Source: Akkermansia muciniphila
GTDB lineage: Bacteria > Verrucomicrobiota > Verrucomicrobiia > Limisphaerales > BJHT01
NCBI GenBank assembly: GCA_945861535.1
Contig: CAMAUZ010000026.1
Coordinates: 1-64,000, forward strand
Length of the DNA: 64,000 nt
Direction of reading: 5' to 3'
A model generated the notes under the pieces. It ran no database searches. It was given only the letters and a program-made list of their open reading frames with translations, and was not told where the DNA came from. The translations under genes were made by a program, and so were the position numbers. Shown piece by piece: positions 3,408-55,679 of this stretch; position 1 is the first letter of the stretch, and the number at the start of each line of letters is the position of its first letter.

Positions 3408-4883
3408 TTACACCAACACGCCCTTCACCACCTCCGCCTCGACCTCGACGCCGGTGAGGCGCTGGTCCAGGCCGAGGGCGCGGTAGGTGAGGCGGCGGTG
3501 GTCGATGCCGAGGAGGTGGAGGATGGTGGCGTTGAGGTCGCGGAGGTGGACGGGGTTCTCGACCACGTTGTAGCTGAAATCATCGGTCTCGCCGTAGGTG
3601 ACGCCGCCTTTGATGCCGCCGCCGGCCATCCACATGCAGAAGTTCCGGGGATGATGGTCGCGGCCGTAGTTGTCTTTTTTCAGCGTGCCTTGGGAATAGA
3701 CAGTGCGGCCGAATTCGCCGCCCCAGACGACGAGGGTGTCGTCGAGGAGGCCGCGTTGCTTGAGGTCGCGGATGAGGGCGGCGGCGGGTTGATCGACGTC
3801 GCCGCACTGGGCGCGGATGTCGTTCGGGAGGTTGCCGTGTTGATCCCAGCCACGGTGGAGGAGCTGTACGACGCGGACGTCGCGCTCGATGAGGCGGCGG
3901 GCGAGCAGGCAACTGGCGGCGAAGGTGCCGGGCTTGGTCACGTCGGGACCGTACATGTCCAGGGTGGCTTTGGATTCTTTGGAGATGTCGGTCAGCTCGG
4001 GGACGCTGGCTTGCATGCGGAAGGCCATTTCGTATTGGGCAATACGGGTCTGCGTCTCGGGGTCGCCCATGCGTTGGAAGTTCAGTTCGTTGAGCTTGCC
4101 GAGGCCATCCAGCATGGCGCGGCGGGAACTGCGGTCCACGCCGGGCGGATTCTTGATGTAGAGGACGGGATCGCCCTGGGCGCGCAAGGCGACACCGGCG
4201 TGGTGCGTGGGGATGAAACCGGAACTCCACATGCGCGTGAAGAGGGCCTGCGCGGCGGACTTGGAGGACCACACGGGGGTGAGGACGACGAAGGAGGGGA
4301 GGTCGTTGTTCTCACTGCCGAGACCGTAGCTGAGCCACGAGCCGAGGCTGGGTTTGCCGGGGATTTCGCTGCCTGTCATAACCACGGTGCAGGCGGGGTC
4401 GTGATTGATGGCTTCGGTGTGGATGGTCTTGATGAGGGCAAGGTCATCAGCGACGCCGGCGGTGTGCGAGAGGAGTTCGCTGATCCACATGCCGGACTTG
4501 CCGGCCTGGCTGAACTTGAACATCGATGGCGCGACGGGAAGCCGCGCCTGGCCGCTGGTCATGGTGGTGATGCGCTGCCCCTTGCGGATCGAGTCGGGGA
4601 GGTCCTTGTCGAAATACTCGGCGAGCTTGGGTTTGTAATCCAGAAGGTCGAGTTGCGAGGGGCCGCCATTCAGGTGGAGATAGATGAGGCGTTTGGCCTT
4701 GGGCGCGAAATGCGGGAAGCCGGCGAGGCCGGGGTGGACGCGCAGGGGCACTGGCTGCGCGGCGGCGAGTGCGCGGGCAGGCGCGCCGAGGGTGGCGAGC
4801 GCGATGGCGCCGGCGCTGAGGCCCGCGCTGGCGAAGAATTGGCGGCGGTTCTGGAGGGTGAGGTAGTCGTGGAGGGGGTTCAT
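3408..4883 (-). CDS. DUF1501 family secreted protein
   Basis: A 491-residue DUF1501 protein, a sulfatase/alkaline-phosphatase-fold relative abundant in Planctomycetota and Verrucomicrobiota. The N-terminus is a Tat-type signal with twin arginines at 13-14 (NRRQFF) followed by a hydrophobic stretch ending ARALA, so export to the periplasm is predicted. Family hallmarks near the C-terminus are [13 protein letters not shown] and [21 protein letters not shown]. It lies downstream of the DUF1549/DUF1553 gene on the same strand, a pairing that is standard for these families and is thought to serve polysaccharide or sulfated-glycan degradation. The exact substrate is unknown. The ATG at 4883 places the RR motif at the usual distance. 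Confidence 0.93.
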
Positions 4884-4934
4884 GGGAAAAGGGGGTGGTT
4901 AGCCAAGGGTGGAACACGGAGGGGATAGCCGGAC

Positions 4935-5082
4935 GGGGAGCGCACGCGGCCCGCGTGCCGGAGTGGGCGGCCCGCCCAATCCGTCGTGGCCCCGGTCTGC
5001 AATGTCCGCCGGGGAAAAAGGTTTGTGGAACGAGGTTTTCGGCGGGCCGCCGAAAACTGCACGCCAGCGGCGTGCGCTCCCC
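4935..5082. repeat. dispersed palindromic element
   Basis: Arms ggggagcgcacgc (4935-4947) and gcgtgcgctcccc (5070-5082) are perfect 13-base reverse complements. Between them are further palindromic pieces, such as the GGCGGGCCGCC region near 5041. The element fills most of the 265-base gap between two genes that are otherwise expected to be co-transcribed. It resembles interspersed GC-rich palindromes of Verrucomicrobiota genomes; that family assignment is an inference. Confidence 0.6.
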
Positions 5083-5148
5083 GGAGCGGTTGACCTGCGC
5101 CCTGCACAAATTCTAGCGCCCGTGTTCATTCCGTGTTTCATCCGCGCC

Positions 5149-8100
5149 TCAGTTCTTCGTCAGGCATTCGTCGAGGTTCAGGATCAGGTTTGCGACGAGA
5201 GTGTAGGCGGCGAGTTCGGAGGGATTGAGGTCGGCGGCGGGTTTGGATTCGCCGACGGCGATGGCGAGCTTCGCGGCTTCGGGATTGGCCTGGAACTTGG
5301 TGAGTTGGGCGGTGAGGGATTCGGTGAGGATGCTTTGTTCGGCGGCGGAGGGTTGGCGGGCGGTAGCGGTGCGGAAGCCCCAGGCGAGGCGTTCGCCGGC
5401 CGTGGCGCCACCTTCTTTCAACAAGCGCTGCGCAAAGGCGCGCGCGGCCTCGAAGTGCTGGATGTCATTCATCAAAACGAGCGCCTGGAGCGGCGTGTTG
5501 CTGCGCTCACGGCGCACGCAGAAGGACTCGCGGCTGGGGGCGTCGAAGGTCGTCATGTTCGGCGGCGGGGCGGTGCGTTTCCAGAAGGTGTAGAGGCTGC
5601 GGCGATAGAGCGCGTCGCCGGCGTCCTGCTTGTAAACGCGCGTGTTGCTGCCGCTGTAGGCGACGGGTTCCCAGATGTTCTCGGGCTGGTAGGGCCGGAC
5701 GCCCTTGCCGCCGATGGTGTGGTTCATCAGGCCGCTGACGAAGAGGGCGTTGTCGCGCACGACTTCGGCATCGAGGCGGTAGCGGGGCGCGCGGCCGAGG
5801 AGGCGGTTCTCGGAATCGGCGGCGAGCAGTTCGGGGCTGACGCGGGAGTCCTGGCGGTAGGTGGCCGAGGTGACGATCAGTTTCACGAGGCGCTGCACGT
5901 CCCAGCCGTCCTGCTGGAAGGTGGTCGCGAGCCAGTCGAGAAGTTCGGGATGCGAGGGCGGCTCGCCCTGCGCGCCAAAGTCGTTCGCGGTCTTCACGAT
6001 GCCGAGGCCGAAGAACTGCTGCCAGAAGCGGTTCACCGCGACGCGCGCGGTGAGCGGGTGCTGCGGGTCCACCAGCCAGCGGGCAAAGGTGAGGCGGTTG
6101 GTCGTGTCGCCCTTCGGCAGCGGCGGGAGAATGGCGGGCGTGTTCGGATACACGCGCTCGCCGGGCTTGTTGTATTGGCCGCGGATCATCACGAACGAGT
6201 CGCGCGGCTTTTCCAAATCGCGATAGATGAAGGTCGCGGGGATGAGTTTCTCAATGGCGTCGCGCTCGGTTTTGAGGGGATTCAACTCCGCGCGCAGCGT
6301 CTCGAAGGCCGGGCGCGTCGTGGCGCACACGTTCTCCAGATAATACTCGCGCAGCTTCTTCGACTGCTCGGGCTTGCGGTCCGCGGGCTTCACCGAGCGG
6401 AAAATCTCGCGCACGTCGGTCGGCAGTTCTTTGTTGTTCTTGCCCTGATTTTCTTTTTCCCACGCGGCCAGCGACTGCGTCGGGTCGGTCAGCGGATTGG
6501 TCTCCGCGCTCAGGCCGGCCTTGTCCCAGAACACCGTGCCGCCGAACTGCGTGAACGCGACGCCCGCGATCTTCGTGCCCGCTTTCAAGCCGAGGCTGTC
6601 CGCGGCGAACTCGAGCTTCACCCATTCGCCCGCCTTGGGCAGCGCCCCCAGCGACTTGCGCTCGTTGGTGCCTTTCTTGCCCCAGTCAATCGCGTCCTGA
6701 TCGCCCCACACCGCGCGCGCCGACCACGTGCCACCGACGTGGAACTGCACCATCACGGACTTGGGAACGTCATTGGTCTCCAGAAAAACATGCGCGAAAA
6801 TCTTCGCCCCGGCCGGCACTGTGATCGCCGGGCCGCCCTCGAAGAAGTCCTGCGCGATCCCTTTGTCCGAGCGCTTCAGCGCGCGTTTGCCGCTGAACAC
6901 GCGACCGCCTTTTTCCGCCGTCACCCACTGCGTCGGTTCGCCCGGACTGGCCGTGACCTTCGCGCCCGCAGGGAAGTCGTCATCCACCCAGACCGACTCC
7001 GTGCGCTTCACGGACGGCGGCGGCGTCAGCGTGGCGGGGTCGGTGTAAGCGAGCTTCGCGGCGAGTTCGCGGCTCGTCTTTTCAATCGCGGAAACCTTGG
7101 CCTCCAAGGCATCGAGCTTCTTCTGCTGATCGGGCGTGGCCAGCTTCAGAATCGGCGGCGTGGTGAGCGAGTTGCCATCCATCGCGGGATCGGCCGCCGA
7201 ATTGAAGAACGAGTACATCGAGTAAAACTCCTTCGTCGAGATGGGATCGAACTTGTGGTCGTGGCAGACCGCGCAGCCCGCCGTCAGGCCCATCCACACG
7301 GCGGCGGTCGTCTCGGTGCGATCCACGGCGTAGCGGAAGAGCAGTTCTTCATTGATTGAACCGCCCTCGCCGGTGGTGACGTTGCAGCGGTTGAAACCCG
7401 AGGCCGTGAGCTGTTCGAGCGAGGGCTTCGGCAGCAGATCGCCCGCGAGTTGCTCCACCGTAAACTGATCGAACGGCACGTTGCGATTGAACGCCTTCAC
7501 CACCCAGTCGCGGTAAGGCCACATCGAGCGCTCGTTGTCCAGATGCAGGCCGTGCGTGTCGCCGTAGCGCGCGGCATCAAGCCAGTAGCGCGCCATGTGT
7601 TCGCCGTAACGCGGAGATTTCAACAGGCGATCCACGACGTGCTCGTAGGCGTTGGCATCCTTGTCCGTGAGAAACGCCGCGACCTCCGCGAGCGTGGGCG
7701 GCAGGCCCGTCAAATCAAACGTCACGCGGCGGATCAACGCTTCCTTTGCGGCCTCCGGCGATGCCGTCAGGCCCTGCGCTTCGAGCCTCGCCAAAATGAA
7801 CGCATCAATCGGCGTCCGCACCACGGCGCCCGCCTTCACCACCGGCACCGCGGGACGCTTGGGCGCTTCAAAGGCCCAGTGTCCCTTGTAGTTCGCGCCC
7901 TGTTCGAGCCACTGCTTGAGCATCTCGATCTGTCGCCCCGTGAGCTTCTTGTGCGACTCCGGCGGCGGCATGATGTCGTCGGGATTCGTCGCCGTGATGC
8001 GCTTCCACAACGCGCTCTCCGAGACCTTCCCCGGCACCACCGCGCGCAGACCTTTGCCCAAGTCCGCGCGGGAACCGTCCTCCGTGTCCAGCCGCAGCTT

Positions 8101-46687: not shown

Positions 46688-47623
46688 ATGAACTGCCGGG
46701 TGGGGGTCATCGCGTGCCTGTTCCTGTGCGTGGCTGTGGCCTTACCCGCCGTCGATACCGTGCCTGCCTTCACGATAGAGGCGCAGGGCAACTGGTACAT
46801 GCTCGCCGCGCACCAGAGCAACCGGAACATCGCCCTCGGGTCGCGGGTCGGGTCGCGGGTTGCGGTCGCGGCCGACGGCGTGGTCTGGCACGACCCGGAG
46901 AAGGTTGCCCCGCCGCTCGTGAGTGCGAAGTGCGCCCGGGGCGCAGCCGATCCCGCGAAGAAGCAGGCCGATCCCAACGAGTTAACCAGTGTCGTGACCG
47001 GCAGCCTCTGCCCGAAGCAAGGCGCGAAACTCGCGGCCCGCTGGCGGATCACGGACAACGACGTCTTGCTGTTGCTTGTCCAGGTCGCTGAGTTCACGGG
47101 CAACCGCAACGGCACCTACAGCGGCGCGGCCTCGGCCGACGTGCTTCTCATCTGCCAGCGAAAGCCGGTGCCCCCGGCGCAGAAACCCGATGCCGCGGCC
47201 GACGCGCAGCGGTTGGTCGGCCAGTGGGTGGTGCTCGGCGAACTTGACGACGCGAACTGCGCCCGCACCCGCCCGCAGGGGAACGTCGCGTTCACGGCCG
47301 CCGAATTCTTCAAGCGTGGCACGCTCAAGTCGGACGCAAAGCCGAGCATGGACGGCACCTGGAAGCTGGTTGAGACGACGACGGAGCGAGGCCGGATCGA
47401 TCTTGGGTTCCGCAGGGGCATCGAGGGGAATCAAGGCCGTTCGCCCAGTCTGTTTACGTTTTTCGGCGACGACCTGTTGATGGTCGTCTATCCGGAGGGC
47501 GGCTGGGCGAAAGACGCCGTGGCGAACCAGGAACTGCGCAAGGCACCCGAGCACTTCGGCTCCGACGGCAACCGCAACATGTGGATCCTGCGGCGCGTGA
47601 CTCTCACCGACCGCGGGCAATAA
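46688..47623 (+). CDS. TIGR03067-like secreted protein (copy 2)
   Basis: A 311-residue paralogue of the preceding gene. Leader MNCRVGVIACLFLCVAVALP, a first module (EAQGNWYMLAAHQSNRNIAL) and a second module ending FFGDDLLMVVYPEGGWAKD and RNMWILRRVTL show the same two-part layout. It ends the long plus-strand series of secreted proteins. The sequence after its stop switches abruptly to gene remnants, marking the edge of the cluster. Confidence 0.7.
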   Translation: MNCRVGVIACLFLCVAVALPAVDTVPAFTIEAQGNWYMLAAHQSNRNIALGSRVGSRVAVAADGVVWHDPEKVAPPLVSAKCARGAADPAKKQADPNELTSVVTGSLCPKQGAKLAARWRITDNDVLLLLVQVAEFTGNRNGTYSGAASADVLLICQRKPVPPAQKPDAAADAQRLVGQWVVLGELDDANCARTRPQGNVAFTAAEFFKRGTLKSDAKPSMDGTWKLVETTTERGRIDLGFRRGIEGNQGRSPSLFTFFGDDLLMVVYPEGGWAKDAVANQELRKAPEHFGSDGNRNMWILRRVTLTDRGQ

Positions 47624-47697
47624 CGGGATCGTCGCCGCCGCCGTCGCCGGATTTCTTTCGCTCGGTGACAGAGGAAGGAACATGTCTGACGACAGCC

Positions 47698-47829
47698 GGC
47701 AAGCTCATCGGCGGGAACGATCTGCTTATTGCCGCGATCGCGCTGACGCATGGCCTGCCGGTGGTGACCCACAATTGCGGTGAGTCCAAGCGGGTTCCCA
47801 GTCTGCGCGTGGACGACTGGTCGGAATAA
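47698..47829 (+). pseudogene. PIN-domain (VapC-type) toxin remnant
   Basis: The frame reads GKLIGGNDLLIAAIALTHGL, then PVVTHNCGESKRVPSLRVDD, and stops. This is the C-terminal third of a VapC-like PIN ribonuclease, including the conserved GGNDLLIAA and VTHN positions. The N-terminal acidic residues and any VapB partner are missing. It shows that a toxin-antitoxin module once lay here. Confidence 0.75.
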
Positions 47830-47976
47830 CGAAGCGAAGTGGTCCGCGCATTCCGCTCTGACCGGTGGCGAGGAGCCGCTTCCGAACCGACAGGGAGAGC
47901 TTGAAATCGATTGGGACCAGTACCAGATGGGCACCGGCCAAGCTGCCTCTTGTTTCACCCTGTCCCGCTTCCCTCC

Positions 47977-48135
47977 GCGGTCAAACAGGTCATTTACCGG
48001 CGGCTGCATGAAGTGCTGACGGGGAAGGATCAGGGCGGGGCGTTCGCGCATCTGTCGGCCGCCGAGCGCCGGAACATCCGGGAGATTTTGCAGGGGACGA
48101 AGGCGGATTTGCCGGGGTATTGGCGGAAGGAGTAG
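47977..48135 (+). pseudogene. 159-bp gene-end repeat, copy B
   Basis: An isolated copy of the 3' end of the cytochrome-like gene (copy A, 34024-34182), reading AVKQVIYRRLHEVLTGKDQG to its stop with no internal break. It is followed, as copy A is, by an AAAGCTC/AAAGTTC heptamer run (48141-48180). The rest of the gene is not present. Between the PIN remnant and this copy (47830-47976) I see nothing. Confidence 0.7.
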
Positions 48136-48309
48136 CGCGGGGGCAAAGCTCAAAGCTTAAAGTTCAAAACTCAAAATTTGCGGTCGAGGTTCAAAGCTTG
48201 GTCTGAATTCGGAGGGAGATTTTGCCGGGCGGGCCGGTTGCTGATCGTGCCCAAGAAACCGTGCTAGCATACTTTACGTTTGGTAAGACTTTACGCATAC
48301 TGCGGTAGC

Positions 48310-49443
48310 ATGTTTGGAAGACCATTCTGGATGAACAGGTTAGAAGAAGCCTGGCGGCAGGCTCCCATCGTCTGGCTGTGTGGCGTCCGTCGCTGCGGCA
48401 AGACCACGTTGGCGGAGAGCTTGGGCGCGGACCGGGCCAGCTACCTCAATTGTGACCTGCCGCAGTCGGAGGAGATGGTCCGCGACCCGCTGATTTTCTA
48501 CCGGTCCTGCACGAAACCCGTGGTGGTCTTCGACGAAGTCCACCAACTCAGCGACCCCAGCCGGGTGCTCAAGATCGGGGCTGACACCTTCCCGCACCTC
48601 AAGATTCTCGCCACCGGCTCCTCGACGTTGGCTGCCAGCAAGAAGTTCCGCGACACCCTCACCGGCCGCAAACGCGTCGTTCATCTCGTCCCGGTAACAT
48701 GGGGTGAACTCCCTGCCTTCGGAAACGTTCCCATCCAGAAGCGTCTCTTCCACGGCGGCCTCCCGCCGGCGCTGCTGGCCGACTCCAAGCCGCCCGCTTT
48801 CTACCGCGAGTGGATGGACTCTTTCTTCGCGCGCGACATCCACCGCCTGTTCGAGTTCCGGGACATGAACCGTTTCAACGCCCTGTTCGAATATCTCCTG
48901 CGGCAGAGCGGCGGCCAGTTCGAGGTGACCAAGACCGCCACCGCCGTCGGTGTCACGCGCCCCACCGTCGAAAGCCATCTCCGCGCCCTCGAAACCACCC
49001 ATGCCGTTACGATCGTGCGTCCCTTCCACGGCAGCGGGCAAAACGAGATCGTCAAGCAACCCAAGGTTTACGGCTTCGACACCGGCTTCGTCAGCCACGC
49101 GCGCGGCTGGGATCCCCTCCGCCAGGAAGACCTCGGCCCGCTTTGGGAACACTTCGTCTTGGAACACCTGCAGGCCCATTTCCCGGACACCACCATCCGC
49201 TACTGGCGGGACAAGGCCGGGCGCGAAGTGGATTTCGTCCTCGCCCGCCGCCGCGACGAAGTGGACACCATCGAGTGCAAGTGGGACCCGCGCTCGTTCG
49301 ACAGCACCGCGTTGCAAGTCTTCCGCAGCTACTATCCCAAGGGCCGCAACTTCCTCGTCAGCCCCTCCTCCGCCCCCGGATACCTCAAAGCGTTCGGCAA
49401 CCTCGAAGTCCGCGTCTGCACTCCCTCGGAACTTCACCCGTAA
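48310..49443 (+). CDS. AAA_14/DUF4143 ATPase
   Basis: A 377-residue protein of the ATP-binding AAA_14 plus DUF4143 family. Walker A is GVRRCGKTT at 25-33, Walker B VVVFDEVH at 71-78, and a sensor-like ILATGSST follows. The C-terminal DUF4143 half contains a winged-helix-like part (FEVTKTATAVGVTRPTVESH). It ends in a nuclease-fold segment (GREVDFVLARRRDEVDTIEC). Such genes are common in accessory DNA of bacteria and archaea; function is unproven and defence or regulation has been suggested. It stands alone and is flanked by direct 159-bp repeats (copies B and C), consistent with acquisition or rearrangement as a unit. The ATG at 48310 is preferred to a TTG at 48280. Confidence 0.88.
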   Translation: MFGRPFWMNRLEEAWRQAPIVWLCGVRRCGKTTLAESLGADRASYLNCDLPQSEEMVRDPLIFYRSCTKPVVVFDEVHQLSDPSRVLKIGADTFPHLKILATGSSTLAASKKFRDTLTGRKRVVHLVPVTWGELPAFGNVPIQKRLFHGGLPPALLADSKPPAFYREWMDSFFARDIHRLFEFRDMNRFNALFEYLLRQSGGQFEVTKTATAVGVTRPTVESHLRALETTHAVTIVRPFHGSGQNEIVKQPKVYGFDTGFVSHARGWDPLRQEDLGPLWEHFVLEHLQAHFPDTTIRYWRDKAGREVDFVLARRRDEVDTIECKWDPRSFDSTALQVFRSYYPKGRNFLVSPSSAPGYLKAFGNLEVRVCTPSELHP

Positions 49444-49576
49444 CCCTGTCTCTCGCCCTCACCAACGCCGTCCGGCCCGCCGCCCACCGCTCCCGGCCCG
49501 CTAATGACTGGTCACTGCATACTGGCCGCGCCTTCTGATGCCTCGGGACCTCACGTCCGATTGCACGCTCCCACCG

Positions 49577-49735
49577 GCGGTCAAGCAGGTCATTTACCGG
49601 CGGTTGCATGACGTGCTGACGGGGAAGGATCTGGGCGGGGCCGTCGCGCATCTGTCCACCGCCTAGCGCCGGAACACCCGGGAAATCTTGCAGGAGACGA
49701 AGGCGGATTTGCCGGGGTATTGGAGGCAGCGGTAG
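49577..49735 (+). pseudogene. 159-bp gene-end repeat, copy C
   Basis: A third copy of the cytochrome-like gene end, reading AVKQVIYRRLHDVLTGKDLG, with an in-frame TAG at about codon 30 and several substitutions. It is clearly non-functional. The remainder of the gap, 49444-49576 and 49736-49924, contains no gene that I can see. Confidence 0.75.
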
Positions 49736-49924
49736 CGGTGGCGGAGCGGGGTGGACGGATGGGCGGGGCGGTTTCAGTGAAAGTGGTCTGGAATCAGGGA
49801 CGCTCTGCTTTTGTCGGAGGTCGGCGTCTGCGCAGGAGCAACGTGGGGCGGTGATCGACTTCGCGCGCTGGCGGGCGCGGAAAGGCTTTTCGTTTGGGCG
49901 GGCGCGTTTTAGCGTCGCCGCATC

Positions 49925-52900
49925 ATGCCCAACGAGTTGAAAGAGGATTTGCGCCAGATGATCGCCGACAAAAAGGTGGTGATGGTCGTCGGCTCCGGGG
50001 TTTCCATCGCGGCGACGAAGAATGCCCCGGCGGCGTCGTGGGGCGGTTTGTTGCAACTGGGGGTGGAGCGATGCCGCGAGCTAAATTCCCAACTGGACGA
50101 GGCCTGGGCGCAGGGGATGCGGAAACAAATCGCTTCGGGTGACCTCGTTGAGATGCTCCTTGCCGCCGAGAATATTTCCTGCCGGTTGGGCGCTCCCGAG
50201 GAGGGCGAGTTTCGGCGGTGGCTTCGCGAGACGGTGGGGGCGCTCAAGGTCCGCGACTCTGGCGTGCTCGAAGCACTGCGGGATCTGCGCGTGCCGCTGG
50301 GGACCACCAACTACGATCACCTGCTTTCGCAAGTCATTCGCCGGCCGCCGGTGACATGGCGCGATCAGGCGGAGGTTTCACGCCTCTTGCGGGGCGAGTC
50401 CGAATCCATCCTCCATTTGCACGGGCAGTGGGCGCAGCCCGAGTCGGTCGTGCTGGGCACGGTTTCTTACGAGGCGATTCGGCGGGACGCCCATGCGCAA
50501 GCAGCCTTTCGGACGGAGGCCATGACCAGGAACCTGGTGTTCGTCGGCTGTGGCGAAGGCTTGTCGGACCCCGATTTTCAGCCCTTTTTCGCGTGGCTGC
50601 GGGAGGTGGGCAAGAAGCACGAGGCGCGGCATTACCGCCTGATTGCAGATGACGAACTGGCGAAGGTCCGCCAGCAGCGATCGCCGGAGCGGCTCCGGCT
50701 CCTGTCGTATGGGAGCGACCACACGGCCCTGGCGGGTTTCCTTGCGGAGCTTGCGCCGCGCGCCCGTGCCCGCGCGACGGCCGGACGGTCCAAGGTTGCG
50801 GTGGGGAAATCTGGTCGCGCCGCTTCCCCAACGCTGTCCCCCGCCATCCTGGCCTATCTGCAGCGGCTGGAAACGGCCACGGCGCGACTTCAGCTCGTGG
50901 GCATCGGACGTGGCCTGCAGATCGAGCTTCCTATCGAACAGGCCTACATCCCGCTCAATGTCCTCGCCCAAGGCGGGCTGGCGGATGGACAGCCGGATCA
51001 CCTTGATCCAAAAAAGCTGGCCGCTGGTCGGCGCGAGGACTCGCCGGTCGAACTGGCCCAGGTTTTCGAGTATGCCGCCCGGCGCGGGCATCGCGGCGTG
51101 GTCCTGCTCGGGGATCCCGGCGCGGGGAAGACCACCGGCGCGCGCCAGTTCTGCTGGCGGGTGCTGCAGGCCCCGATGGCCGCGAGGACAGCCCTCGGGT
51201 TGCCGGGTGATGTCATCCCTGTTTTTCTACGCCTGCGCCACCTCAAGGCCGAGCACACCAGCCTCAAGGCGTTCATCTGCGAGAGCGTGGCCGCGCCGTC
51301 CGCGCCGGACGATCTGGCCCAGCCCGGTCCGGACTTGTGGGACCGCCGGGAACACGTCCTGTGGGTGTTCGACGGCCTGGATGAAGTCGTGGACGAGGCT
51401 CTGCGCATCCGCGTGGCGGGCTGGATTCAGCGGGCGCTGACGGAGCGGCCGCGCGACTATTTTCTGGTGACCAGCCGCTATCAGGGCCAGGTGAATCTCG
51501 GGGCGTCCTTCTGTCTGTTCCAGGTGCGGCCGTTGGAAGGGGGGCAGGTCGCGGCGTTTGTGTCCCACTGGTATCGCGCCGTGTTTCGCTGCCTGCACGA
51601 CTCTGGCGCGGGGGTCGAACGGCAGGCCGACCAGCAGAGCCGGTCGCTGATCGCGATTCTCGACCAATCTGACTACCGGGTGGGCAGTTTGCGCGCGCTG
51701 CGGGCCAATCCGCTGATGCTGACGATCATCTGCGTCGTGCATCACGAGGACAAAAACCTGCCCCACCGGCGGGCGGACCTCTATGCGCGCTGTGTGCGCG
51801 TGCTGGTCGAGCATTGGCGGCGCGAGCTGCGCGAGACTGCGGGGCTGGCGCACTTCAACGCCGGGGCGGCGGAGAGCGTGCTCGCCAAGGTGGCGTGGTG
51901 GTTGCACGGCACGGAAAATCGCGCGACGGCCACGGTCGCCGCCTTGGGCACCGTGGCGGGCCGGGCGCTGGCCGGCATGTCTGCGAACGCGGGGCTGGGC
52001 CGGGACGGCGGGCGTTTCATCGCCCGGATGCGGGACGAGAGCGGGATTCTCGCGTGGCACGGCGATGGCCAGACCGGTTTTCTGCATCTCACCTTTCAGG
52101 AGTATCTGGCCGGAGATCATGCGCATCGCGAAGGGCGCGAGGCGGAGTTGGTGCGGAACTTTGGCAGCAAATGGTGGCGCGAGGTGACCCTCATCGCCGT
52201 GGCGCTGGGTTCGGAGGTGTTTGCCCATCGGTTCTTCAAGGCGCTGCTGCGGACGCCGGCGCTGGGGACCGAGCGGGAGCTGTTCGAATTGTGCCTGAAG
52301 GAGGCCCAGCACAAGGTGCTCCAGCCGTTCCTCGCCGAACTGCGCGCGCCGCAGGCCACGGCGGCCCGGCAGCTCGCGATTCTGCGCCTGCTGACCGATC
52401 AGGATCAGCCCGGTCTGTTGCAGGTGTGTCGGAAGCTGGCGGACGGGCGAAATGACGAGGTGGCCGCGCTGGCCCGGGAAATTCTCCAGCGGGCGACCGG
52501 TGAGACGCAGCCCGCGGCTGCGCCCCGGGTCGTGGTGGGTGGCGAGACCTTCGTCGATCCCCGGACCGGGATTGCCTTTGTCGGGATTCCGGCGGGGGAG
52601 TTTGCGATGGGGTCGGCGAAGGGTGGCTATGATGATGAACGGCCGATGCATCAAGTGCGGATTTCATCGGGCTTTTTGCTCGGGAAGTACCCGGTGACCA
52701 ACGCGGAATATCAGCGGTATCTGGAGGCCAACCCGAAGGCCAAACCACCGGGCGAATGGACGAACAGCCAGTTCAATGAACCACAGCAGCCGGTGGTGGG
52801 CGTTTCGTGGCATGACGCGCAGAAGTTTTGTCAGTGGGCGGGTTGCCGGCTGCCGACGGAGGCGGAGTGGGAATACGCGTGCCGGGCGAAATCGCGCGGC

Positions 52901-53302
52901 GCGTATTGCTTCGGAAGCACCGAAGCGAAGTTGAAAACGTACGCGTGGTATGGCGCGAACAGTGGCAATAAAACGCACGCGGTGGGGCGAAAGAAACCCA
53001 ACGCGTGGGGGTTGTACGACATGCACGGCAACGTGTGGGAGTGGTGCCAGGACGTGTGGGATGCGGAGGCCTACCGGAAACGGATTGGTGGCGTTGCGGA
53101 CCCGGTGACGGCTGCTTCGGCTGATGAGGATCCGCCCCGTGTGTTGCGGGGCGGTTCGTGGCTCGACTCAGCCGGGGGCTGCCGGTCGGCGTTCCGCGAC
53201 AGGGGCGTCGCGGTTGGTCGCATCGGGAACTTCGGTTTCCGGGTTTGTCTTGCGCGCGGTCCGGCAGCCAGCAGTCCAATCAGCAAGCCAGCCAGCGCGT
53301 AG
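49925..53302 (+). CDS. SIR2-NACHT-FGE domain protein, probable anti-phage effector
   Basis: A 1125-residue three-domain protein. Residues 15-275 are a SIR2-like NADase domain: VVGSGVS at 21-27, TTNYD at 127-131, LHLHG with His166, and VGCGEGLSDPDF at 207-218. Residues about 335-850 are a NACHT STAND NTPase: Walker A GDPGAGKTT at 396-404 and Walker B FDGLDE at 482-487, with the helical region including FLHLTFQEYLAGDHA. Residues about 870-1110 are a formylglycine-generating-enzyme/C-lectin-like domain (FAMGSAKGGYDDERPMHQVR, RLPTEAEWEYACRA and RVLRGGSW). The known logic of such proteins is sensing by the STAND module followed by NAD depletion by SIR2 and abortive infection. The C-terminal domain would be the sensor. 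No partner gene is needed or visible. Neighbours are accessory (PIN remnant, AAA/DUF4143). Confidence 0.88.
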   Translation: MPNELKEDLRQMIADKKVVMVVGSGVSIAATKNAPAASWGGLLQLGVERCRELNSQLDEAWAQGMRKQIASGDLVEMLLAAENISCRLGAPEEGEFRRWLRETVGALKVRDSGVLEALRDLRVPLGTTNYDHLLSQVIRRPPVTWRDQAEVSRLLRGESESILHLHGQWAQPESVVLGTVSYEAIRRDAHAQAAFRTEAMTRNLVFVGCGEGLSDPDFQPFFAWLREVGKKHEARHYRLIADDELAKVRQQRSPERLRLLSYGSDHTALAGFLAELAPRARARATAGRSKVAVGKSGRAASPTLSPAILAYLQRLETATARLQLVGIGRGLQIELPIEQAYIPLNVLAQGGLADGQPDHLDPKKLAAGRREDSPVELAQVFEYAARRGHRGVVLLGDPGAGKTTGARQFCWRVLQAPMAARTALGLPGDVIPVFLRLRHLKAEHTSLKAFICESVAAPSAPDDLAQPGPDLWDRREHVLWVFDGLDEVVDEALRIRVAGWIQRALTERPRDYFLVTSRYQGQVNLGASFCLFQVRPLEGGQVAAFVSHWYRAVFRCLHDSGAGVERQADQQSRSLIAILDQSDYRVGSLRALRANPLMLTIICVVHHEDKNLPHRRADLYARCVRVLVEHWRRELRETAGLAHFNAGAAESVLAKVAWWLHGTENRATATVAALGTVAGRALAGMSANAGLGRDGGRFIARMRDESGILAWHGDGQTGFLHLTFQEYLAGDHAHREGREAELVRNFGSKWWREVTLIAVALGSEVFAHRFFKALLRTPALGTERELFELCLKEAQHKVLQPFLAELRAPQATAARQLAILRLLTDQDQPGLLQVCRKLADGRNDEVAALAREILQRATGETQPAAAPRVVVGGETFVDPRTGIAFVGIPAGEFAMGSAKGGYDDERPMHQVRISSGFLLGKYPVTNAEYQRYLEANPKAKPPGEWTNSQFNEPQQPVVGVSWHDAQKFCQWAGCRLPTEAEWEYACRAKSRGAYCFGSTEAKLKTYAWYGANSGNKTHAVGRKKPNAWGLYDMHGNVWEWCQDVWDAEAYRKRIGGVADPVTAASADEDPPRVLRGGSWLDSAGGCRSAFRDRGVAVGRIGNFGFRVCLARGPAASSPISKPASA

Positions 53303-53687
53303 GCGGAGCACGCCCTGGGAGACGGAGGCGCGAGGGACGAAGCGCCGGAGTCGGACGGGGCGTGCGGAGCCGGAGCGAGGAATTGCCTGCGTCTCAGGCC
53401 CCCAACGAAATCCGCGCAGCGGAAATTTTTTTCGGCAGAAAAATGGAACGGGGTCGGGGACGGGGATGGGAATTGGCAGACGAATGGGGAAATGGGATGA
53501 GGTTGGCGCGGATGGGGTGCGGGTCGAATGGGTCGCGCGCCCATGTGGCGCAGGTTTCCAAACCTGCTGTGTCGCCGACTTCCAAGTCGGCAGGGTGTTG
53601 GCCTCGCCGGACGCTCCGCAGGTTTAGAAACCTGCGATACAGCAGGCTTGGAAGCCTGCGCTACACATCGGGTCTGAAAGGTGCCGG
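53303..53687. repeat. intergenic region with four 18-bp palindromes
   Basis: Four palindromes of 18 bases (53550-53567, 53574-53591, 53618-53635, 53642-53659) follow the form gcaggtttccaaacctgc. They are spaced by short linkers. They are of the dispersed-repeat type common in this window and may act as a stop region between the convergent SIR2-NACHT and acyl-CoA dehydrogenase genes. No gene is seen in the gap. Confidence 0.75.
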
Positions 53688-55679
53688 CTACGACTCGCGT
53701 GCCGCCGGGTGCGCGGAACTCGCGCGCGGGCCGCCGGCGCTCCCGCGCAGGATTCCCGTTTCGAGCCACTCGAGTCTGCCGGCGCTGATGGCTTGGGCGA
53801 GGGAGTAGCCGGGGCGGTCGGAGTTGTGACGGATGCCGGTGAAGTGGGCGGCGATGCGTTCGCGGGCGGTGCGGCAGAAGTAGTCGGCGAGTTTGACGAG
53901 GTCGTCGCGGGATTCGGCGGTGTCGAGGAGGGTTTGGGCGCGGCAGCAGGTGGCGGTGAGGGCGAAGAGTTCGGTGCCGATATCGACGAAGCGGCCGAGG
54001 AGGACTTGTTGGCGCTCGAGTTTGGGGCCGAACAATGCCATCGCGTGGAAGAGGGAGCGCGCGAGTTTGCGGCTGGTGCGGGCGGCGTAGCGGAGGTGGC
54101 GTTTCAAGGTGGGATGAAGGTGCGTCGCGCCGCGGGTGTCGGGCGTGGCGAAGGGGAGCCATTGTTGCGGATACCAGACGGCGTAGTGGAGGCCGGCTTT
54201 GAGGGCGGCCTTGGCGCGTTCGGCGAGGGGGAGTTGGGTGTTGAGCGCGGCGCCGGCGATTTTCAGATGCGGGTCGAGGGCTTCGCGGGCGAGGAAGAGG
54301 CGCATGATTTCGGAGGAGCCTTCGAAGATGGTGTTGATGCGGCAGTCGCGCAGGAAGCGTTCGATGGCGAGCGGGGCTTCGCCGCGGGCTTTGAGGGAAT
54401 CGGCGGTTTCGTAGCCGCGGCCACCGCGGATTTGCATGGTTTCGTTGACGATGCGCCAGGCGGCTTCGGAGCCCCAGAGTTTGCACATGGCGGCTTCGAG
54501 GCGGACGTCGGCGTGTTTGTCGCGGTCCACTTTGCTGGCGGCGTAGAGGGTCATGGATTCGAGCGCGAAAATGTCGGCGGCCATGTGGGCGAGCTTGTCG
54601 GCGATGGCGGCGTGCTTGGCGATGGGCGCGCCCCATTGCTCGCGTTCGGCGGCCCAGCGGCGGGCGATTTCGAGGCAGCGTTTGCTCGCGCCGAGGCAGC
54701 CGGCGGGGAGCGTGAGGCGGCCGGTATTGAGCGTGGAGAGGGCGACCTTCAGGCCCTTGCCTTCGGCGAGGATGATGTTTTCGCGCGGGACGCGGACGTT
54801 GGTGAAGCGCACGACGCCGTTGTAGAGGGCCTTCAGGCCCATGAAGCGGCAGCGGTGCGTGACCTCAATGCCGGGCGTGTCCATGTCCACGATGAACGCG
54901 GTGACCTGGTCGCGCGAGCGGCCGTGGACGACCTTCGCGGGCGTGCGGGCCATGACGACGATGACGCCGGCTTTGGTGCCGTTCGTACACCAGAGTTTCT
55001 CGCCGTTGATGATGAAGCCGGTGCCGTCGGACGTGGGGTCGGCGCGGGTGACCATGCGGGCGGGGTCGGAGCCGACGCCGGTTTCGGTGAGGGCGAAGGC
55101 GGAGATTTCACCCTTGGCGACACGCGGGAGGAAGCGGCGTTTTTGTTCCTCGGTGCCGAAGAGGATGAGCGGTTGCGGCACGCCGATGGATTGGTGCGCG
55201 GAGAGCAGCGCGGTGAGATTCGCGCAATAGCTGCCGAGCAGGATCGCGGCGCGGCAGTAGTTGGTTTGCGAGAGGCCGAGGCCGCCGTGCGCGGGGGAAA
55301 TCTTGATGCCGAATGCGCCGAGGGCGGCGAGGCCGTCGAGGACTTTTTGCGGAATCTCGCCGGTGCGGTCGATCTCGTCGGGATCAACATTGGCCGCGAG
55401 GAAGGCTTCGAGGCGTTGGAGGAAGGCGTCGCCCTGGTCGTGGTCGGCGGGCTTTTGTAGGGGGAACGGCAGCAGGGTCTCGAGGTTGAGTCGGCCGAGG
55501 AAGAGGTCGGTGGCGAAGCTGGCGCGGGCGGCGGTGGCGTCGCGGGCGGCCTCGGTCATCTCGAGCGCGGCGCGTTGGCCGGTGGACATGCGCGAGGTGT
55601 CGATGACGGGGGCGGCTTCGTCGGTGTGGGCGGGCGGGGCGACGGGGGCGGCGCTCGGGGTGGGGGTGAGAGTGTTCAT
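53688..55679 (-). CDS. acyl-CoA dehydrogenase
   Basis: A 663-residue FAD-dependent acyl-CoA dehydrogenase (FadE-like, first oxidation of fatty-acid beta-oxidation) with an N-terminal extension of about 90 residues. The core shows ISAFALTETGVGSDPARMVT, YNGVVRFTNVRVPRENII, the region QIRGGRGYETADSLKARGE and the C-terminal signature EGSSEIMRLFLAREALDPH. A further helical C-terminal domain follows. The last 15 residues (GSAGGPRASSAHPAARES) come from a dispersed GC-rich repeat. It is the last gene of a five-gene operon and begins six bases after the preceding stop. Confidence 0.93.
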   Translation of the reverse strand: MNTLTPTPSAAPVAPPAHTDEAAPVIDTSRMSTGQRAALEMTEAARDATAARASFATDLFLGRLNLETLLPFPLQKPADHDQGDAFLQRLEAFLAANVDPDEIDRTGEIPQKVLDGLAALGAFGIKISPAHGGLGLSQTNYCRAAILLGSYCANLTALLSAHQSIGVPQPLILFGTEEQKRRFLPRVAKGEISAFALTETGVGSDPARMVTRADPTSDGTGFIINGEKLWCTNGTKAGVIVVMARTPAKVVHGRSRDQVTAFIVDMDTPGIEVTHRCRFMGLKALYNGVVRFTNVRVPRENIILAEGKGLKVALSTLNTGRLTLPAGCLGASKRCLEIARRWAAEREQWGAPIAKHAAIADKLAHMAADIFALESMTLYAASKVDRDKHADVRLEAAMCKLWGSEAAWRIVNETMQIRGGRGYETADSLKARGEAPLAIERFLRDCRINTIFEGSSEIMRLFLAREALDPHLKIAGAALNTQLPLAERAKAALKAGLHYAVWYPQQWLPFATPDTRGATHLHPTLKRHLRYAARTSRKLARSLFHAMALFGPKLERQQVLLGRFVDIGTELFALTATCCRAQTLLDTAESRDDLVKLADYFCRTARERIAAHFTGIRHNSDRPGYSLAQAISAGRLEWLETGILRGSAGGPRASSAHPAARES

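Follow-up and report, generated by a model that had tools for sequence, protein, structure and literature searches.

A predicted SIR2-NADase NLR-like receptor with a putatively retroelement-diversified FGE sensor domain

Conflict systems that combine a STAND NTPase with a C-terminal FGE/CLec domain (STAND NTPase-FGS) have been described by Kaur et al. 2021 (PMC8195603) and Dore et al. 2024 (PMC10907252), the latter reporting STAND/NACHT-CLec proteins as targets of diversity-generating retroelements (DGRs). SIR2-STAND proteins of the Avs5 type hydrolyze NAD+ on infection, the Asn of their TTNXD motif being essential (PMC12931631), and DUF4062 is a NADase according to a preprint (PMC13174449). 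Kaur 2020 (PMC7159879), the FAM118 paper (PMC12700824) and Guo 2011, cited below, were consulted as well. Here we analyze a gene (hereinafter W) that encodes a SIR2-NACHT-FGE protein of 1125 aa and is located at positions 49925-53302 of the forward strand in a 64,000-nucleotide stretch of DNA (hereinafter the window) from contig CAMAUZ010000026.1 of the genome assembly GCA_945861535.1, which is labelled Akkermansia muciniphila (Verrucomicrobiota). The novelty of this protein is the SIR2 effector on a STAND-FGE chassis.

The domain layout of W is certain. The open reading frame (ORF) starts with ATG and has no internal stop, and three Pfam matches, all exceeding the respective cut-offs, lie within it on the same strand, namely SIR2_2 at residues 127-249 (50303-50671, E 1.6e-17), NACHT ATPase at residues 392-551 (51098-51577, E 1e-11) and the FGE-sulfatase/C-lectin-fold domain at residues 885-1107 (52577-53245, E 1.6e-57). 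An earlier note, made from the sequence alone, had proposed exactly such a chain, with an N-terminal SIR2 domain, and had named Asn129, His166 and Lys402; the Pfam search finds all three domains, and each of the three residues is in place, Lys402 being part of Walker A. The motifs are VVGSGVS (residues 21-27), TTNYD (127-131), LHLHG (163-167), GDPGAGKTT (396-404) and FDGLDE (482-487). The aligned SIR2 region comprises residues 1 to about 280 and includes N129 and H166; G23, G25, N129, D131, H166 and D215 are kept across seven aligned SIR2 domains, the catalytic N and H being invariant in 7/7. Among solved structures, the best relatives of this region, as detected with a 7-sequence profile, are human FAM118B (1.6e-39) and ThsA (4e-13), the matches to both extending over the SIR2 region only. 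Judging from these families, a NADase effector is likely. The layout does not represent a chance fusion, because contig C35 of the same genome carries a second, full-length SIR2-NACHT-FGE gene, 62% identical to W over the alignment and sharing its three domains, and SIR2, NACHT and FGE domains are likewise combined in a gene in locus L173 of genome G056, from the same order and another family.

Compared to the STAND NTPase-FGS class, W shares the central STAND/NACHT NTPase, the C-terminal FGE domain and the N-terminal slot for an effector or adaptor, as well as the presence of several copies per genome and a DGR-type variable region. It differs in the effector: the accessible text of PMC8195603 mentions SIR2 once, for a different system, and that of PMC10907252 does not mention it, so that neither lists it as an effector of this class. 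It differs also in that neither a DGR reverse transcriptase (RT) nor a template was found in the assembly (see below). With Avs5, W shares the N-terminal SIR2 domain with TTNXD, the STAND ATPase, the C-terminal sensor and the single-gene organization; the differences are the FGE sensor and the motifs GSGVS and HG of W versus GAGXS and, often, NG in Avs5 (PMC12931631). PADLOC yielded no match of W to an Avs model and a weak match to LmuA. The plasmid SIR2-NACHT-HEAT proteins, such as the one in the Azotobacter locus L238, likewise combine SIR2_2 and NACHT in one chain and have HEAT repeats in place of the FGE domain. The DUF4062-NACHT-FGE gene of L154, which contains an in-frame stop, shares with W the NACHT-FGE core and a predicted NADase effector, the effector domain itself being unrelated. 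No description of a SIR2-NACHT-FGE protein was met in the literature searched, the scope of which excluded most subscription papers and supplementary files. The earlier note had further taken the FGE domain for the C-terminal sensor and considered this its uncommon feature; the role of a sensor is plausible, one of the two FGE cysteines being absent, and the FGE sensor as such is not new, FGE/C-lectin STAND sensors being in print already (PMC8195603, PMC10907252).

The assembly (7.94 Mb, 169 contigs, 96.6% complete, 1.9% contamination) contains additional receptor genes. Contigs C127 and C98 each end inside such a gene, the visible part of which shows pentapeptide repeats (a Pfam result for C127) along with an FGE domain; the 5' halves of these two genes are probably located on C44 and C117, as indicated by identical contig ends of 144-149 bp. 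In the C44 half, a P-loop-like motif was read by eye and no Pfam match was obtained; the designation of this second chassis as STAND is our own reading. For the gene parts 5' of the FGE domain, W groups with C35 and C127 groups with C98. Inside the FGE domain, C98 is nearest to C35 for the most part, and in the last FGE block W is nearest to C127 (65% versus 30-37% identity), the gene ends of W and C127 being 85% identical over 143 bp and their FGE proteins 61% identical. There are two classes of variable regions, W/C127 and C35/C98, each of which pairs one SIR2-NACHT-FGE gene with one gene of the other chassis.

Within these pairs, the differences are distributed in a distinct manner over a 24-codon core (53162-53233 in W, forward strand). 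Between W and C127, 12 codons of the core differ, with 12 nonsynonymous and 0 synonymous differences and 17 of the 18 base changes in the first two positions of the codon, compared to 73 nonsynonymous and 39 synonymous differences in the 184 FGE codons upstream; for C35 and C98, the respective values are 12/1, with 16 of the 17 base changes at positions 1-2, and 31/27 in 185 upstream codons. First and second bases account for 9+8 (W/C127) and 9+7 (C35/C98) changes, and 1 of the 24 third bases changed in each pair. The Fisher test of nonsynonymous versus synonymous differences, core versus upstream, gives 0.008 for either pair and 7e-4 combined. The codons 3' of the core are ordinary again in the four genes (6/3 and 7/4), and across the classes the shift to codon positions 1-2 is weaker (p 0.055 for W-C35, 0.09 for C127-C98). 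A further pair, L178/L179 of genome G599, shows 9/1 in the core versus 74/49 upstream. The ratio of transitions to transversions is 6:12 in the core and 85:94 upstream for W/C127, 5:12 and 38:36 for C35/C98, and 4:7 and 80:105 for L178/L179.

As controls, 46 FGE C-terminal segments were pattern-extracted from loci L091-L170, yielding eight pairs at least 60% identical. The fingerprint is present in two of these (14/0 and 11/1, with no third-base change), both within L091; the other six lack it and have 6 to 18 third-base changes in the core, two of them reaching p 0.014-0.015 for positions 1-2, yet with 12 and 14 third-base changes. In L091 (Methylococcaceae), an RT with the motif IGNLTSQFFAN sits among the FGE genes (among the control loci, the RT check covered L091, L096 and L144). 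The comparison with known templates gave a core of 24 codons for six of the seven templates; the L216 template departed from the pattern and was left out. In 17 of the 24 columns, A occupies codon positions 1-2 in at least half of the six templates, and the variable codons fall on such A columns in 12/12 cases for W/C127, 11/12 for C35/C98 and 9/9 for L178/L179; none of the 23 circular shifts matches the true register on the mean difference for any of these pairs. The FGE C-terminus of W bears the DGR fingerprint, i.e., a DGR-type variable region that the earlier note had missed; a DGR origin of the sensor variation is well supported by the pattern and the controls and, for want of a template, short of proof.

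Two further features escaped the first reading, namely the sharing of the sensor module with the second receptor type and a 3' hairpin element (53290-53441, forward strand). By blastn, this element recurs behind the other three receptor genes and, a 26-bp match in unrelated sequence (C109:4054-4079) aside, nowhere else in the genome. The element includes a hairpin predicted by folding, which is located past the stop codon (53308-53365) and carries GAGGGACGA in its loop (at 53332), and a terminator-like stem followed by a T run (53410-53432), read by eye. The hairpin is strong (z -3.8 for W and -3.5 for C35, using 80- to 100-nt flanks and 100 mononucleotide shuffles); such a strong 3' fold is not general because 14 other flanks, including those of verified DGR targets, gave z -2.2 to +1.5 in the same test. 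The letters of the stem vary between the classes and the loop motif is constant. The 9-mer, which was chosen post hoc, after it had been sighted in our own loci, L220 and L228, occurs in 23 distinct contexts in loci that total 1.64 Mb with their overlaps, where 12.5 copies are expected. Thirteen of these contexts are located behind an FGE region, 12 of them flagged at most 330 nt past the variable region and the one in L117 74 nt past the stop; five belong to this genome, five to G599 (on three contigs) and one each to G646, a Cloacimonadota contig and a Chlorobiaceae contig. The motif is also found behind the verified variable regions of L219, L220 and L228, and its positions 3' of FGE regions include L220:5515, L220:8439, L196:175, L218:3653, L219:3705, L127:4878 and L117:4376. 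A further copy in this genome, in L090, has no FGE gene before it. Our claim is limited to the motif and its location because background copies of the motif are likewise surrounded by short stems; a MAFFT alignment of 12 hairpin regions failed to register the motif and was not used. The motif is a candidate for the sequence signal of one DGR group.

In the interpretation that we favor and regard as fairly probable, W is a SIR2-NADase NLR-like receptor for NAD-based phage defense, the sensor of which was, or in trans still is, diversified by a DGR. Such a one-chain bacterial NLR-like (STAND) immune receptor would bind an invader molecule through the C-terminal lectin-fold FGE domain, whereupon the NACHT ATPase would switch and oligomerize and the N-terminal SIR2 domain would hydrolyze NAD+, bringing the infected cell to a halt. 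A DGR, by template copying with adenine mutagenesis, would have rewritten the face with which the FGE domain binds; this DGR would lie outside the assembly and either have acted in the past or act in trans from an unassembled piece. The domains, the key residues, the paralogs, the substitution pattern, the sharing of modules and the 3' element are observed, whereas we infer NADase activity, oligomerization, ligand sensing, phage defense and a DGR as the cause.

Several results weigh against this interpretation. The variation is limited to template-A-type positions of the CLec/FGE C-terminus, as expected of a DGR target, but in the 96.6%-complete assembly blastn detected no template repeat for either class (two weak second-class matches, on C132 and C29, fall within unrelated genes; the remaining weak matches were not inspected), and an RVT_1 search detected no DGR RT. 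Nor was a template found for L178/L179, a pair that is suggestive at most (p 0.056). As no template was detected, A-specificity cannot be demonstrated, and the coincidence of variable codons with A columns is also expected under plain selection because these columns are the binding-loop positions. The 80-nt flanks of most verified DGR targets have no strong fold, and the loop of the W hairpin comprises 9-10 nt, versus the 4-nt GRNA loop of the DGR hairpin described 3' of the variable region by Guo 2011 (PMC3240598). The NACHT part of W has no significant match to solved structures by sequence, and the full-length model was poor (pLDDT 53) and was discarded.

The only RVT_1 match of the assembly reads QGGVISP and YADD and is group-II-intron-like. 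The same search found RTs with a TSQ motif, which we take to be typical for DGRs, in G599, G645 and G646, and no match in G056, the other genome with a SIR2-NACHT-FGE gene. A finder of A-biased templates, run on the window, six loci of this genome, L154, L200 and L214-L230, recovered template/variable pairs in L217, L219, L220, L224 and L228 and nothing in the window or the other loci of this genome, its matches in L229 being of low complexity; it is not exhaustive because it missed L216 and L225, where blastn repeats near the RT match the variable regions (82-84% in L216, 91.5% over 130 bp in L225).

The failure to find a DGR in the assembly favors, first of all, the alternative that the same SIR2-NADase receptor evolved without one, the core having been spread among the receptor genes by gene conversion, with its contact residues then altered by positive selection. 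The receptor genes did exchange FGE modules, and the variable columns are binding-loop positions, on which selection would likewise act. We nevertheless consider this scenario unlikely: the third bases of the core are nearly constant next to the many first- and second-base changes, transversions exceed transitions in the core and not to this extent upstream, and the sole control locus with the pattern, L091, holds a DGR RT.

A broader scenario can be put forward, tentatively and with somewhat more doubt than confidence, whereby the genome possesses a small repertoire of suicide receptors on two chassis, with FGE sensors that are diversified by a retroelement and can be exchanged between the chassis. 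Each pair of chassis would have its own class of variable region, the 3' hairpin would be common to all, and the DGR would act in trans or have been lost, leaving a frozen, antibody-like set tied to NAD depletion. If the favored interpretation is right, NAD depletion would be wired to a hypermutable lectin-fold sensor within one polypeptide, DGR sensor cassettes would move between receptor chassis, and DGR targets could live apart from, or outlive, their DGR. The open question whether DGR-diversified STAND sensors detect phages would become testable because the output is easily measured and a single genome already supplies natural variants of the sensor.

A STAND receptor with the same SIR2 output and a role other than phage defense, such as kin recognition, plasmid control or a developmental death switch, appears still less probable than selection without a DGR. 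Kin recognition has been raised as an alternative for DGR-STAND proteins (PMC10907252, in its accessible text), and W lies outside any defense island; conversely, its effector and chassis resemble anti-phage proteins (ThsA and, weakly in PADLOC, LmuA). The earlier note had placed the gene among toxin and ATPase remnants, consistent with a defense island, and such an island is ruled out by Pfam and PADLOC on the neighbors. The ATPase ORF upstream of W (AAA_14/DUF4143, 387 aa, 48280-49443) is open, and the other neighbors with Pfam matches are not defense genes, i.e., PSCyt-type and DUF1552 genes upstream and, on the opposite strand downstream, acyl-CoA dehydrogenase, ECH/3HCDH, thiolase, AMP-binding and patatin genes (fatty-acid-type enzymes). 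PADLOC on eight neighbors gave a single match, that of the AAA_14/DUF4143 ORF (PDC-S01).

The FGE domain of W, modeled together with 47 FGE homologs, reaches pLDDT 90.5 and pTM 0.87, and Foldseek places FGE enzymes on top (6e-21), followed closely by PvdO and by TvpA, which is the variable protein in a DGR of Treponema. The first Cys of the FGE active-site pair is Asp in W (D1081), C1086 being retained, and therefore the domain is probably a binding module. That it is an active oxidase modifying a substrate under regulation by the SIR2-NACHT part is highly improbable notwithstanding the strong FGE profile and fold match, given D1081, by which an enzymatic FGE was ruled out, and the scores of W far below the cut-offs of the NCBIfam models for enzymes with this fold.

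With the SIR2-NACHT part as the query, 6 of 384 genomes of the class match at E<=1e-30; all three domains are present in two of these, this genome and G056, and the ORFs of the remaining four have the SIR2 part but lack an FGE motif. In the phylum survey, 5 of 387 genomes match, with the three domains in this genome only, and G599 encodes a NACHT-FGE protein with a different N-terminus. These counts are lower bounds because the sets of genomes drawn overlap and scoring was limited to two candidates in each genome. A scan of genome contigs returned mainly matches to the FGE part because the queries were two FGE peptides. G599, a genome of the same phylum, has three NACHT-FGE ORFs arranged around a DGR-type RT (L216:1684-13000, reverse strand), the last ORF being truncated where the locus ends, and the variable regions of two of these ORFs are repeated near this RT. 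In an Anammoxibacter genome (L225), a Metallophos-NACHT-FGE gene adjoins a DGR-type RT. Three FGE-domain copies with the same substitution fingerprint surround a DGR-type RT (4199-5281) at L091:3090-9907. Contig C15 of the present genome encodes a 1009-aa NACHT protein (L090:4080-7106, reverse strand) in which leucine-rich-like repeats and a DUF4062-like start were recognized by eye.

A phage origin of W was rejected, no relative having been found in three viral-contig scans, two of them single-sequence and sensitive to close relatives only, and so was a plasmid or phage origin in general: matches were obtained to 371 plasmid and 18 phage records, and in none of them did a single place account for more than 80% of the protein. 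Downstream of the gene, a dispersed, partly palindromic repeat (53530-53690) accounts for nearly all of at least 67 matches in the genome (query 53290-53720; among the best 40 of 217 candidates), and the three Rfam matches, all sub-threshold and to miRNAs, fall within the part of this repeat at 53542-53666. Upstream, at 47581-47829, a PIN-like tail resembling a fragment of a PIN-domain toxin was read by eye only. A direct repeat of 169 bp (47970-48137 and 49569-49737, 88.8% identity) brackets the AAA_14/DUF4143 gene, which looks as if it had been inserted or duplicated.

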